A stretch of DNA of 64,000 nucleotides from positions 1 to 64,000 of the forward strand of contig NZ_MUHF01000030.1 in assembly GCF_002217435.1 (NCBI RefSeq). Direction: 5' to 3'. This DNA is from Flavobacterium reichenbachii (GTDB taxonomy: Bacteria > Bacteroidota > Bacteroidia > Flavobacteriales > Flavobacteriaceae). Under the pieces are notes generated by a model that did not search any database, was not told the origin of the DNA, and saw nothing but the letters and a program-made list of their open reading frames with translations. Positions 143-19,574 of this stretch are shown one piece after another (position 1 is the stretch's first letter; each line of letters begins with the position of its first letter). The translations under genes and the position numbers were made by a program.

Positions 143-2779
143 ATGAAATCACAAGACGTACGTAAACAATTTTTAGACTTTTTTAAGAGCAACGGACACT
201 TAATCGTTCCTTCTGCTCCCATCGTTCTTAAAGACGATCCAACCCTTATGTTCAATAACTCGGGAATGGCCCAGTTTAAAGAATATTTTTTAGGGAACGG
301 AACGCCAAAAAGTCCGAGAATAGCCGATACGCAAAAATGTCTTCGTGTTTCAGGAAAACATAACGATCTTGAAGATGTAGGTTTTGATACTTATCATCAC
401 ACCATGTTTGAAATGTTAGGAAACTGGTCATTTGGAGATTATTTCAAGAAAGAAGCAATCAACTGGGCTTGGCAGCTTTTGACAGAAGTTTATAAGATTC
501 CAAAAGAAAATCTTTACGTTTCAGTTTTTGAAGGAAGTAAAGAAGATAACGTTCCGTTTGATCAGGAAGCTTGGGATATCTGGAAAACTTTGATAGACGA
601 AGACCGAATTATTCTTGGAAATAAAAAAGATAATTTCTGGGAAATGGGAGATCAGGGACCATGCGGACCTTGTTCTGAAATTCACGTTGATTTACGTTCA
701 GAAGAAGAAAAAGCATTAAAACCAGGGAAAGAAGAAGTAAATAACGATCACGCACAAGTAGTTGAAATCTGGAATAATGTATTCATGGAATTCAACCGTA
801 AAGCAGATGGTTCTCTAGAAAAACTTCCGGCACAACACGTAGATACCGGAATGGGATTTGAGCGTTTGTGTATGGCTTTACAAGGAAAAACATCCAATTA
901 TGATACCGATGTTTTTACACCGCTTATCGAAAAAGTAGAGCAGATTACAGGTCTAAAATATACTTCTGATGAAATTAAAAACATCAGCGAGGAACAAAAT
1001 AAAACAAACATTGCGATTCGTGTAATCGTAGACCACGTTCGTGCGGTTGCTTTTGCAATTGCAGACGGGCAATTGCCATCTAACACAGGTGCGGGTTATG
1101 TTATTCGTAGAATCTTGCGTCGTGCAATTCGTTACGGATTTACATTCTTAGATATCAAAGAACCATTTATAAATAAACTGGTAGAAGTTCTTGCAAATCA
1201 AATGGGAGAATTTTTCCCGGAAATAAAATCGCAGCAACAATTGGTTACCAATGTAATTCGTGAAGAAGAAGCCTCTTTCTTAAGAACTTTAGAACAAGGA
1301 TTACAACTGTTAGAAAATGTGGTAACAGAAACTACAGGAAAAGAAGTTTCTGGTGCTAAGGTTTTTGAATTGTATGATACATTTGGTTTTCCAAAAGATT
1401 TGACAGCTTTAATTTTAAAAGAAAAAGGATTCTCTTATAATGAAGAAGAATTTGAGGTTGAATTACAAAAACAAAAAACACGTTCTCGCGCCGCTTCTGA
1501 AGTTTCTACAGAAGACTGGAATGTTTTGATTCCTGGAAATGTGGAAACGTTTGTGGGTTATGATAAAACAGAAAACGAAGTAAAAATCACTCGTATTAGA
1601 AAAGTTGATTCTAAAAAAGATGGTATTTTGTATCAAATCGTTTTAGACAATACACCTTTTTATCCAGAAGGAGGAGGACAAGTTGGTGATAAAGGAACGT
1701 TGGTTTCTGCAAACGAAACAATTGAAATTATTGATACCAAAAAAGAAAATAATTTGATCTTGCATTTTGCAAAACAACTTCCCGAAAATGTAGAAGCTGG
1801 TTTTGTCGCAAAAGTAAATACTGATTTAAGAACATCAACTTCAAAAAATCACTCTGCTACGCATTTAATGCATTTGGCACTGAGAAGTATTTTAGGTACA
1901 CACGTAGAACAAAAAGGATCGTTGGTAAATCCAAATTATCTGCGTTTTGACTTCTCTCATTTTAGCAAAGTTTCTGATGAAGAGATTAAACAAGTTGAAG
2001 CTTCTGTAAATGCTCAGATTGAAGCGCAATTGCAATTAGTAGAACATAGAAATATTCCGATTCAGGAAGCGTTGGATAAAGGAGCAATGGCTTTATTTGG
2101 CGAGAAATACGGCGATAATGTTCGTATGATTGAATTTGGCGAAAGCAAAGAATTATGCGGTGGTATTCATGTAAAAAATACGGGTGAGATCTGGCATTTC
2201 AAAATTATTTCTGAAGGTGCTGTTGCAGCTGGAATTCGTCGTATTGAAGCAATTACAGGTGATGCAGTGAAGAACTTCTATCTAAACCAGGAAAACACAT
2301 TGGCAGAGATAAAAGAAACGCTTAAAAATCCGCAGGATATTTTAAAATCTGTTGCTTCACTTCAGGATGATAATGCAAAATTGAAAAAACAAATTGAGCA
2401 ATTATTAAAAGAAAAAGTTGGAGCGTTAAAAACTGAATTGGAGAAAGATTTTCAAGAAGTAAACGGCGTAAATTTCCTTGCTAAACAAGTAGATTTGAGC
2501 ATGGCGTCTACAAAAGATTTAGCTTCGGCATTAGGAAGTTCAAAACCAGATTCGTTTGTGTTTTTAGCTTCTGTAGAAGATGGTCAGCCAAATATTCATT
2601 GTTATATTGCTAAAGAATTGGTAGCTTCTAAAAGCTTAAACGCAAATGCAGTAATTAAAGAATTAGGAAAATATATTGAAGGAAATGGAGGAGGACAGCC
2701 TTTCTTCGCATCTGGAAAAGGTAAAAATGCTAACGGAATTACTGAGGCTTTGGCTAAGGCAATAGAGTTTTTGAAGTAA
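143..2779 (+). CDS. alaS: Alanine--tRNA ligase
   Basis: Class II synthetase that charges tRNA-Ala, with an editing domain that clears Ser/Gly-tRNA-Ala; cytoplasmic. The N-terminal catalytic core is plain ([38 protein letters not shown]-like [12 protein letters not shown]). The editing site follows ([12 protein letters not shown], then [14 protein letters not shown] with Cys and His metal ligands), then a coiled coil and the C-terminal C-Ala domain ending in a Gly-rich [14 protein letters not shown]. The product is 878 residues, normal for the family. I chose ATG 143 over the in-frame ATG 110 because family members begin at MKSQDVR and because 110 lies in repeat sequence. Its stop is 17 nt from the convergent ABC exporter. 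Confidence 0.97.
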
Positions 2780-17513: not shown

Positions 17514-18758
17514 TTAACCGATTAACTGCGTAAACAAATCCTGATTGTCATTCAGATATTGAAATTCAAAACCATTCTGTGTCATATTCAGTTTGATAGA
17601 CATGATATCGTTTTTGTTTTTCAATTCTAAACCAACCACGACAGAACCTACTTCACGGTTATTTTTTTTGTGAAATTGAAAATAAGTAATATCATCGTCC
17701 GGACCTAAAATGTTATTTACAAATTCTTTTAAAGCTCCGGGACGCTGCGGAAACTGAATCATAAAATAATGCATTAAACCTTCATAAAGCAGCGAGCGTT
17801 CTTTTATTTCGGCAGTTCTTTCGATGTCATTATTGCTTCCGCTTACAATGCAGACTACATTTTTTCCTTTAATTTTTTCTTTATAAAAATCAAGCGCGGC
17901 AATAGTCAAAGCACCTGCAGGTTCAACTACCATTGCTTCTTCATTATACAAACGTAATATTGTGGTACAGACTTTTCCTTCGGGAACCAGAATAATATCT
18001 TCCAGATTATAACGGCAGATTTCAAAAGTTTTATCACCAACTTGTTTAACAGCAGCGCCGTCCACAAATTTGTCAATGGTTTTTAAGATCGTATTTTTGT
18101 TTTCTTCTATAGAAGTTTTCATAGAAGGAGCGCCTTTTGGCTCAACCCCAATTATTTTAGTATTTGGACTTAAGTTTTTAAAAACCTCAGATAATCCAGA
18201 AGCCAGTCCGCCTCCGCCAATCGGAACAAAAACATAATCGATAGGTTCTTTAAAACTTTCCAGTATTTCTAATCCGACTGTTCCTTGTCCGGCTATTACT
18301 TTTTCATCATCAAAAGGGTGGATAAATGTTTTATGGTTTTTAATCGCATCTGCAGTAGACGAAGCATAAGCATCATCAAAAGTGTCACCTGTCAGAACAA
18401 TTTCTACAAACGATTTTCCGAATAATTGTACTTGTTTTACTTTTTGTTTTGGAGTAGTTTTTGGCATGTATATTTTGCCTTGTATTTTGAGAAGATTACA
18501 AGAATACGCAACACCTTGGGCATGATTTCCTGCACTCGCACAGACAATTCCGTTTGCTTTTTCTTTTTCATTTAATGAAGAAATCTTGTTGTAAGCACCT
18601 CTGATTTTATACGAACGCACAATTTGCAAATCTTCTCTTTTAAGTAAAATAGTTGCTTCAAATTCGTCTGAAAGATTTAGATTTTGTGTTAAAGGTGTTG
18701 CTGCAACTACATTTTCAAGCTGTTTTTTGGCGGCAAGTACTTCGTTAAATAGATTCAT
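17514..18758 (-). CDS. ilvA: Threonine ammonia-lyase (threonine dehydratase), biosynthetic
   Basis: 414 residues. A PLP enzyme that deaminates threonine to 2-oxobutanoate, the committed step to isoleucine. The PLP lysine is Lys51 in SYKIRGAYNK; the glycine loop GGGGLASG and the SGSNND segment are present. The C-terminal third (FPQRPGALKEFVNNILG onward) is a single ACT-like regulatory domain. This arrangement gives isoleucine feedback control in short biosynthetic forms. No other ilv gene is in the window. A 240-nt leader with an Ile-rich peptide, terminator and antiterminator precedes it, so transcription should respond to charged tRNA-Ile. Confidence 0.95.
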   Translation of the reverse strand: MNLFNEVLAAKKQLENVVAATPLTQNLNLSDEFEATILLKREDLQIVRSYKIRGAYNKISSLNEKEKANGIVCASAGNHAQGVAYSCNLLKIQGKIYMPKTTPKQKVKQVQLFGKSFVEIVLTGDTFDDAYASSTADAIKNHKTFIHPFDDEKVIAGQGTVGLEILESFKEPIDYVFVPIGGGGLASGLSEVFKNLSPNTKIIGVEPKGAPSMKTSIEENKNTILKTIDKFVDGAAVKQVGDKTFEICRYNLEDIILVPEGKVCTTILRLYNEEAMVVEPAGALTIAALDFYKEKIKGKNVVCIVSGSNNDIERTAEIKERSLLYEGLMHYFMIQFPQRPGALKEFVNNILGPDDDITYFQFHKKNNREVGSVVVGLELKNKNDIMSIKLNMTQNGFEFQYLNDNQDLFTQLIG

Positions 18759-18776
18759 GATTTTTTGTTTTTTTTG

Positions 18777-18859
18777 CCACGAATTACACGAATTTCCACT
18801 AATTTTTATTCTTTAATATAGAAGAAATAATTCGCGTTAATTTGTGAAATTCGTGGTGG
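18777..18859. repeat. Imperfect palindromic repeat in the ilvA leader
   Basis: The left arm GCCACGAATTACACGAATTT and the reverse complement of the right arm, CCACGAATTTCACAAATTAA, are near-identical inverted copies about 25 nt apart. The CCACGAATTTCAC word resembles a repeat I associate with Flavobacterium intergenic regions. It lies between the attenuator terminator and the ilvA start codon, so it would be transcribed as a stable hairpin. Confidence 0.6.
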
Positions 18860-18878: not shown

Positions 18879-18905
18879 AAAAAAAACCTCCCGATTTGGG
18901 AGGTT
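18879..18905 (-). terminator. Attenuator terminator upstream of ilvA
   Basis: On the minus strand AACCTCCC and GGGAGGTT form an 8-bp stem with loop AAATC, followed by a run of Ts (eight including the stem end). It lies between the Ile-rich leader peptide and ilvA and would stop transcription before ilvA when the antiterminator is not formed. Confidence 0.88.
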
Positions 18906-18940
18906 CTTATAAATTATATTACTTATTTATATAACACCTC
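18900..18940 (-). promoter_or_regulatory. Antiterminator of the ilvA attenuator
   Basis: On the minus strand GAGGT (18940-18936) and TTATA (18934-18930) can pair with TATAA (18911-18907) and ACCTC (18904-18900). This gives a 10-bp stem with a small interior loop. The pairing consumes the 5' arm of the terminator stem, so the two structures exclude each other. GAGGT starts only 4 nt after the leader stop codon, so a ribosome finishing the peptide would cover it and let the terminator form. A ribosome stalled on the Ile codons would leave it free. Confidence 0.75.
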
Positions 18941-18944
18941 GCCA

Positions 18945-19004
18945 TTATTGCTCAATTGCAATAATGCTGATAATAGCGATAATAATGTTATTAAAGTTTG
19001 TCAT
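18945..19004 (-). CDS. ilvA leader peptide (isoleucine-rich attenuation peptide)
   Basis: A 19-residue open frame, MTNFNNIIIAIISIIAIEQ, with eight isoleucine codons (ATT and ATC) and no leucine or valine. It starts 12 nt after the inferred transcription start and ends 4 nt before the antiterminator arm. The composition matches the end product of the pathway of the downstream gene, which is the hallmark of ribosome-mediated attenuation. The frame is too short for normal gene calling. There is no Shine-Dalgarno sequence, as is usual in this phylum; the ATG follows an A-rich stretch. Confidence 0.88.
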   Translation of the reverse strand: MTNFNNIIIAIISIIAIEQ

Positions 19005-19022
19005 TTTTTGTTGTTTAAAAAA

Positions 19023-19030
19023 CAAATGTA
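19023..19030 (-). promoter_or_regulatory. Promoter -7 box of the ilvA leader
   Basis: The minus strand reads TACATTTG, an exact TAnnTTTG match, placing the RNA start near 19016. It is only about 8-15 nt downstream of the stop codon of the DUF4136 gene, so the -33 region lies within that gene's 3' end. No good TTG is seen there. Confidence 0.65.
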
Positions 19031-19037
19031 CTTATAA

Positions 19038-19574
19038 TTATTTTTTTACAGGTGGATATTGAGCTAAAATTTTGTTTACAAATTCAGCTACTTTTTCATC
19101 TTTTTTGTCCACATTTTTAGTCAAAGTTCCTAATCCTTCGCCTTGCCAAACCATTTCTTTCTTTTTGGCATCGATTAAATCAATGTATAGAGTTCCTTCT
19201 GTAGAAGTAGAAACAGAAGTCTGGTTTCCGTACATCATCCAGGGATTCCAACCCCAGCCCCAGCCGTATCCCCAGCCAGCGCTAAATTGGTTTACATTTA
19301 CCTGTTCTCTGGATTTGGTAAAAATATTAACTAATAGATCTGGATTTTCACTTTTAGTAAAACCTTTAGCCTGCAGTTCATTGTCAATTGCGTGAAGAAT
19401 ACGTCTCTTATCTAAATCAGAAATTTCAACCTTATCAATTCCGGGCTTAAAGAAAGCATACGTTTTATAAGGCGCAAAATCTACATTTTTATCGTAATCA
19501 GAGTATACCGTAACACTGCTGCAGGAAGCAAGTACCAAAAGCAAAAAGACAGGAATTAATTTGTATGTTTTCAT
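19038..19574 (-). CDS. DUF4136 domain-containing lipoprotein
   Basis: 178 residues. The signal MKTYKLIPVFLLLVLASCSS ends in a lipobox. The mature part shows the DUF4136 pattern: SVTVYSDYDKNVDFAPYKTYAF, then KRRILHAIDNELQAKGF, a Gly/Trp-rich loop (GWGYGWGWGWNPW) and GTLYIDLIDAKKKEMVWQGEG. Function is unknown for the family; it is expected to be anchored in the outer membrane or the periplasmic face. It starts 36 nt after hutU on the same strand, so it may be read from the hutU transcript. Confidence 0.9.
   Translation of the reverse strand: MKTYKLIPVFLLLVLASCSSVTVYSDYDKNVDFAPYKTYAFFKPGIDKVEISDLDKRRILHAIDNELQAKGFTKSENPDLLVNIFTKSREQVNVNQFSAGWGYGWGWGWNPWMMYGNQTSVSTSTEGTLYIDLIDAKKKEMVWQGEGLGTLTKNVDKKDEKVAEFVNKILAQYPPVKK

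Follow-up and report, generated by a model that had tools for sequence, protein, structure and literature searches.

How Flavobacterium reichenbachii adjusts the expression of ilvA is the question raised by a short segment upstream of this gene, located in the 64,000-nt stretch of DNA analysed here (contig NZ_MUHF01000030.1, positions 1 to 64,000; hereafter, the window). Ribosome-mediated attenuators have their paradigm in the ilv, thr, trp and his operons of Proteobacteria, where leader-peptide attenuation is classical, and we found little on this kind of regulation in Bacteroidota. An earlier note, made from the letters of the sequence, described the segment as a complete attenuator with an isoleucine-only leader peptide, working as a simple two-state switch. 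Our results indicate that the isoleucine attenuator upstream of ilvA is genuine and well conserved, and of a kind already known; very probably, it controls the transcription of ilvA by ribosome-mediated attenuation, according to the supply of charged Ile-tRNA.

The elements of the locus are listed in Table 1. The -7 box, the 19-codon frame with eight Ile codons (positions 7, 8, 9, 11, 12, 14, 15 and 17) and the T-tract terminator previously described upstream of ilvA on the minus strand are all found in the sequence. The box was assigned according to the -7 consensus of Bacteroidota. The motif TAnnTTTG is named as well in an account of F. psychrophilum (PMC9723704). Regarding the controlled gene, its product scored 631.5 bits with NCBIfam model NF006390 and 617.1 bits with TIGR02079, both above the cut-off, and an IlvA search of the own genome returned five matches, one of them strong and corresponding to the ilvA studied here, the next listed having an E value of 3.3e-11.

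Table 1. Elements of the ilvA locus and their positions in the window.
Element	Position	Strand	Details
-7 promoter box, Bacteroidota type	19030-19023	minus	TACATTTG; read from sequence
Leader peptide ORF	18945..19004 (ATG 19004-19002, stop TAA 18947-18945)	minus	MTNFNNIIIAIISIIAIEQ; 19 codons
Hairpin P, leader end	18966-18958 with 18951-18943	minus	CATTATTGC pairs with GCAATAATG; 9 bp
Antiterminator	18940-18936 with 18904-18900; 18931-18925 with 18914-18908	minus	GAGGT with ACCTC; TATAAAT with ATTTATA
Intrinsic terminator	18905-18898 with 18892-18885; T tract 18886-18879	minus	AACCTCCC with GGGAGGTT
Candidate longer 1:2 pairing	18991-18984 with 18938-18931; 18979-18976 with 18942-18939	minus	weak
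ilvA, threonine ammonia-lyase, controlled gene	17514..18758	minus	414 aa; NCBIfam
Upstream neighbour gene	19038-19574	minus	no assigned function; same strand as ilvA

The terminator comprises 8 pairs, or 11 counting the A-U ends, with a folding energy of -15.6 kcal/mol (z -4.85), and hairpin P, whose 3' arm includes the stop codon of the leader, reaches -9.0 kcal/mol (z -3.6). For the antiterminator, RNAfold gave -8.6 kcal/mol (z -3.4) with flanks and -7.5 kcal/mol (z -2.2) as a bare element; it does start 4 nt after the leader stop, as had been stated, and its helices are better drawn as 5 + 7 pairs, which RNAfold prefers over the 5 + 5 pairs first proposed. The statement that it uses the terminator's own 5' arm holds, since ACCTC is common to both structures and renders them mutually exclusive.

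From this arrangement we infer promoter use, translation of the leader, pausing, termination and a response to isoleucine, which would be connected as follows. Transcription would start just before the leader, as the -7 box suggests, with a ribosome trailing RNA polymerase through the leader, and hairpin P would most likely hold the polymerase until the ribosome arrives. When Ile-tRNA is scarce, the ribosome would stall on one of the eight Ile codons with its leading edge short of GAGGT; the free GAGGT would pair with ACCTC, the antiterminator would occupy the 5' arm of the terminator, and ilvA would be transcribed. When Ile-tRNA is ample, the ribosome would reach the stop codon and cover GAGGT, ACCTCCC would pair with GGGAGGT, and transcription would terminate at about 18880.

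Such parts could also arise otherwise: the stem-loop might be just the terminator of the upstream gene, which ends 33 nt before the leader ATG, and the Ile-rich frame a chance product of A+T-rich DNA. When the 279 nt between the two genes were subjected to dinucleotide shuffling, an ORF of 10-40 codons with at least 8 Ile codons appeared in 30 of 5000 cases; among the 637 ORFs of 10-40 codons in the window, two contain 8 Ile codons, the other one having them among 39 codons; and a promoter/terminator scan returned 1 terminator-like site against 0.7 expected from shuffles. Since shuffles yield similar features, the Ile-rich frame and the stem alone constitute modest evidence, and it is conservation that decides.

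An IlvA protein search in 199 genomes of the same genus gave a match in 197, many of these being weak paralogue matches. The first set comprised 80 ilvA loci whose upstream DNA was read (about 100 nt in the case of L084), 30 of them taken from this search and 50 from a group of 54 stretches; the other four stretches corresponded to paralogues, and the set does not include the ilvA loci of genomes G031 and G116. An Ile leader followed by an antiterminator and a terminator was found in 45 of these 80 loci (44 by script, plus L033), and one further copy, at L053, displays a diverged leader and matches R1, a model built on the ilvA leaders, with an E value of 2.7e-8. Eight loci (L038 and L040-L046) have their match to the attenuator model farther upstream, at 584-713 nt in seven of them and at 2.6 kb in L038. 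Finally, 26 loci were without such a leader directly upstream or not classifiable, several of them, as judged by eye, sitting behind an ilvC-like gene; in L009, L050 and L056 the leader is apparently absent from the upstream DNA read. The alignment of the 45 loci (A1) excludes L050, with a terminator and no Ile leader, and L053.

A second set, overlapping with the first, was integrated by the best 80 named relatives (91-96% IlvA identity, nearly all titled Flavobacterium). Leader, arm and terminator occur within 1500 nt in 77 of them, 57 of these loci not being identical to any previously retrieved locus; no leader was found at L209 and L255, and L267 has just 118 nt of upstream DNA. The leader frame and the paired arms, on whose loss in close relatives the earlier note would have given up attenuation, are kept in 45 of 80 loci of the first set and in 77 of 80 of the second. 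Furthermore, 44 of the 45 aligned loci have TAnnTTTG 16-20 nt ahead of the leader ATG; the exception is L033, for which just 5 nt of upstream DNA were retrieved. In the second set, the motif is found no more than 60 nt ahead of the ATG in 77/77 leaders. A tree based on 198 nt of ilvA was poorly resolved, with 7 of 42 inner branches well supported, too few for independent events to be counted on it.

In L050, a terminator without an Ile leader comes after a neighbour gene of the same type, in agreement with a plain terminator and an accidental frame. Conversely, a promoter box precedes the leader in every testable locus of both sets, and the leader, hairpin P and the antiterminator are all conserved, at distances that hardly vary, which speaks against an accident; we consider that explanation very unlikely. 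The terminator itself may serve both the upstream gene and the ilvA attenuator.

Two further structures at the locus were considered and set aside. Between the attenuator and ilvA, at 18774-18858 of the window, lies an imperfect long inverted repeat (CCACGAATT...AATTCGTGG), which was rejected as a second attenuator: it is devoid of a leader frame, and its end motif is found genome-wide, in 29 copies (12 forward, 17 reverse; 0 for the reversed control), as in a dispersed repeat. Similar repeats occur in L033 between ilvA and the attenuator, which is about 560 nt away. A second small frame across the leader stop codon (TAATG) was dropped, its ATG being lost in L047 and L049 by eye.

The leaders of the 45 aligned loci are 16-20 codons long and contain 6-10 Ile codons. 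At the eight Ile columns of the alignment, ATT, ATC and ATA are exchanged for one another and never for Val or Leu codons, the other residues encountered there being Asn, Ser, Thr, Gly, Arg, Gln, Phe and Met; outside these columns, one Val codon occurs in 4/45 loci and one or two Leu codons in 18/45. The position of the stop codon also varies, its first base preceding the antiterminator arm by 7 nt in 41 loci and by 10 nt in 4. The last Ile codon, by contrast, invariably begins 16 nt ahead of the arm (45/45). In the second set, with the arm located by a simple motif, the latter distance is 16 nt in 75/77 loci and 15 nt in 2/77. These observations are not independent, given the relatedness of the loci and the additional constraint that hairpin P places on this stretch. 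The critical measure of the switch would be this distance of roughly 16 nt, whose near constancy offers a way to test how far a stalled flavobacterial ribosome reaches.

The leader peptide is hydrophobic and conserved, as would be expected if it were a functional small peptide, acting in the membrane or in trans, with the RNA structure being secondary. Under such a function, Val and Leu, the usual exchanges in membrane helices, should be tolerated, and yet they are absent from the eight Ile columns; the length of the leader varies while the codon-to-arm spacing hardly does; and in L027 an Ile codon reads ATC in place of ATT while CAA has become CGA, a compensation within hairpin P that alters the peptide. 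A functional peptide is thus highly improbable.

Hairpin P is the best-covarying helix of the 45-locus alignment and the only one with clear compensatory changes: 98.4% of its cells are paired and 5 of its 9 pairs are changed on both sides, neither value being reached in 500 shuffles, and slid versions of the helix are paired in at most 80.3%. This element had been missed when the attenuator was called complete, and the presence of a third hairpin also departs from a simple two-state switch, as does a weaker pairing of the leader with the arm, seen in the fold and devoid of covariation. By analogy with the trp paradigm, the probable role of P is the pausing of the polymerase. With regard to the comparison across Flavobacterium that had been proposed, the Ile codons are conserved; compensatory changes in the terminator (97.7% paired) amount to a weak covariation signal, and those in the antiterminator (94.7% of cells paired, 44 distinct sequences) do not exceed shuffles. 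Judged from this alignment, the antiterminator is conserved rather than covarying. RNAalifold applied to the ilvA alignment predicted hairpin P and the terminator and not the antiterminator, which is expected, because antiterminator and terminator exclude each other.

The effect of the ribosome was computed in the 45 loci by folding nascent transcripts that include the shared arm and lack the 3' arm of the terminator, with the ribosome footprint placed codon by codon. The mean antiterminator probability was 0.91-1.00 as long as the A site was located between codons -16 and -2 (0 being the stop), and it fell to 0.26 at codon -1 and to 0.04 at the stop. Of the 346 Ile-codon positions, 343 gave a value above 0.5; the antiterminator does not win at the last Ile codon of L010, L014 and L030. 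Varying the leading edge between +10 and +15 nt in 16 of the 45 loci preserved the contrast between the last Ile codon (0.89-0.97) and the stop (0.00-0.23). Such a dependence on ribosome position is, in these computations, the behaviour required of an attenuator, and it agrees with the proposal that the antiterminator arm is hidden once the ribosome has reached the stop codon, and is left free by a ribosome on an Ile codon. In the ribosome-free RNA the mean antiterminator probability was 0.78, with values above 0.5 in 82% of the loci.

The latter result bears on a variant compatible with the main reading, namely a classical three-hairpin attenuator in which P extends into the arm and untranslated RNA terminates (superattenuation, as in trp). 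The longer 1:2 pairing over the antiterminator arm is in fact part of the minimum free energy structure of the window RNA, both for the full and for the truncated leader, and the consensus leader-end hairpin of 17 ilvD leaders from other genera reaches into the presumed arm (alignment A3, which includes 17 of the 28 loci L116-L143, all ilvD-like; the remainder lie before other genes, have diverged leaders or, in the case of L143, belong to the genus of the window). Among the ilvA loci, however, this extension is paired in just 86.9% of cells, with covariation not above shuffles; hairpin P stops 2 nt short of the arm, and the ribosome-free RNA mostly favours the antiterminator. The lower 1:2 pairing was therefore not adopted as a protector, being present in the minimum free energy structure and unsupported by the alignment, and it is kept as a rival that we regard as rather unlikely. 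Because P leaves the antiterminator arm uncovered, untranslated RNA of the ilvA attenuator is predicted to read through, unlike in the trp paradigm.

An isoleucine-responsive terminator upstream of ilvA would look alike from afar if control were exerted by a T-box or a metabolite riboswitch. An Rfam scan of the site gave no family at gathering score, and no T-box among the 30 weak matches, of which the best was Thr_leader (RF00506; 18876-18994, 32.2 bits, E 2.3e-4, gathering score 55). These sub-threshold matches were set aside as chance or convergence. The scan thus gave no domain for binding a tRNA or a ligand, which speaks against T-box or riboswitch control of ilvA, and such control appears extremely improbable.

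The choice of codons in the ilvA leader can be compared with a second leader of the same genome. A single ilvD match was found in the own genome, at L172 (G000:C33), and upstream of it lies, by eye, an attenuator-like leader, MMQISIIITSVVVVNVFSTSASGMV, with four Ile and six Val codons, followed by an antiterminator-like stretch and a terminator; the leader of L143, translated by script, is near-identical. Isoleucine is the sole branched-chain end product requiring ilvA. The Ile-plus-Val leader at ilvD thus bears out the proposal that Ile-only codons suit a stand-alone ilvA, and the pair constitutes a clean case with a natural control within one genome.

Model R1 matched the own genome solely at the ilvA copy, and gave matches in 85 of 249 genomes of the genus and in 29 of 299 genomes of a family sample, 27 of them outside the genus; the family counts were obtained with stricter filters, by which weak matches are lost. 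With genes called by eye (and by Pfam for L128, L151 and L161), the 27 loci outside the genus lie before ilvD-like genes (20), ilvE-like genes (3), a pair resembling GatC and GatA (2) and a gene resembling prephenate dehydratase (1); at one locus no gene could be named, and none of the 27 lies before ilvA. The Ile-only version at ilvA thus seems to have arisen in Flavobacterium from an older Ile/Val attenuator.

Other leaders among these loci are rich in different codons. From position 1501, L128 and L137 display Asn-rich leaders (MINNNNNNFNNPNF and MMNNNNNNNFNNPIF) with a terminator, behind which a small GatC-like frame (20.8 bits in L128, below the Pfam cut-off) precedes an amidase-family, GatA-like gene (by Pfam in L128, by eye in L137); a possible reading is an asparagine attenuator for tRNA-dependent amidation. 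Likewise from position 1501, L140 displays a Phe/Tyr-rich leader (MINLIRWNTFFYFYFYFRDRNGSVM) and a terminator before the prephenate dehydratase-like gene, which was named by eye.

In some relatives, a second attenuator type is found directly behind R1-type ones, with an Ile-rich leader (e.g., MKNLTAIIIIAIIIICLS) and a terminator (CCTTTCTC/GAGAAAGG). Model R2, built from 15 such copies (one opposite-strand match at L147 being left out of the R2 set), matched at least at 73 bits in 43 places of 40 of the 249 genus genomes, with weaker matches, which often coincide with R1 attenuators, uncounted; it had no match in the genome of the window. According to coordinates, 39 of the 43 places have another R1 or R2 match at most 150 nt upstream, and in 34 of these the gap measures 1-13 nt; in the other four of the 43, an upstream leader and terminator were recognized by eye. 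R2 was thus seen only behind another attenuator in all 43 places of at least 73 bits. Serial attenuators were found in other Flavobacterium (L145-L150, L157, L161, L162, L165-L169, L174, L190-L195), before ilvE-, ilvN- or ilvB-like genes; there are two in each array, except in L190, L191 and L192, where three attenuators in a row precede ilvE-like and ilvD-like genes; the genes behind the arrays include acetolactate synthase small subunit domains (L145, L162) and a class IV aminotransferase (L161) by Pfam, and an ilvB-like frame (L166) by eye. Between the tandem attenuators and ilvA of L165 (G157; 2026-2466, minus strand) lies a small ACT-like gene (Pfam ACT_5, 23.5 bits, below the cut-off), and by eye likewise in L167 (G046), with the same attenuator-ilvA spacing in five more genomes; this gene is perhaps a regulatory partner. 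Among the open-access papers listed for tandem attenuators, one concerns Salmonella mgtCBR (PMC3641672), and none is, by title, about amino-acid operons. These serial attenuators are more surprising than the ilvA switch and merit a separate study.

Taken together, these observations suggest a wider proposal, which we put forward tentatively and regard as somewhat less probable than not. The ilvA attenuator would be of a ruler type and on by default: P would time the polymerase without protecting the terminator, lack of translation would result in read-through, and the 16-nt distance would be under selection. It would further belong to a codon-programmed branched-chain regulon of Flavobacterium, the other members of which would string together two or three different leader-peptide attenuators; if true, the second type, Ile-rich and seen only behind another attenuator, would act as a serial (AND-type) isoleucine gate.

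Regarding known systems, the ilvA attenuator shares with those of the proteobacterial ilv, thr, trp and his operons a short leader rich in codons for the end product, the decision by ribosome position, and an antiterminator sharing the 5' arm of the terminator. It differs from them in that Ile is the sole regulatory codon, before a single ilvA, and in that hairpin P lies beside, and not over, the antiterminator arm.

According to a study from 2010, which added a case from Firmicutes, amino-acid leader-peptide systems had until then been known just in Proteobacteria and Actinobacteria (PMC2965389), and short ORFs recalling attenuation leader peptides have been described in Bacteroides (PMC7366714). 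Within the same genus as the ilvA switch, strong clues of leader-peptide attenuation before amino-acid biosynthesis operons were reported for F. psychrophilum, with structured 5' elements before pheA and hisG that have no Rfam matches (PMC9723704); therefore, this kind of attenuation is not new to the genus. The terms "ilv" and "isoleucine" have 0 occurrences in the main text of that work, and no leader sequence, spacing or covariation is given in the part of it drawn on here; it also remarks that Bacteroidota mostly initiate translation without a Shine-Dalgarno sequence (PMC9723704). Among the open-access papers listed, none dealt, by title and abstract start, with an ilvA attenuator in Bacteroidota.

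A tested counterpart is Rli60 of Listeria monocytogenes, a ribosome-mediated attenuator for branched-chain amino acids located before ilvDBHC-leuABCD-ilvA, with a 13-codon leader, an antiterminator of -10.3 kcal/mol and a terminator of -17.1 kcal/mol (PMC5864092). Rli60 is likewise based on a leader peptide, but belongs to another phylum, uses branched-chain codons generally and controls a whole ilv-leu operon; furthermore, its start-codon and ribosome-binding-site mutants act as superattenuators, that is, untranslated RNA terminates, in contrast to the read-through predicted for the Flavobacterium ilvA (PMC5864092). The attenuator of Corynebacterium glutamicum ilvBNC also has three hairpins, described as terminator, antiterminator and a third one called anti-antiterminator (PMC11857589), whereas hairpin P of the ilvA attenuator does not overlap the antiterminator arm.
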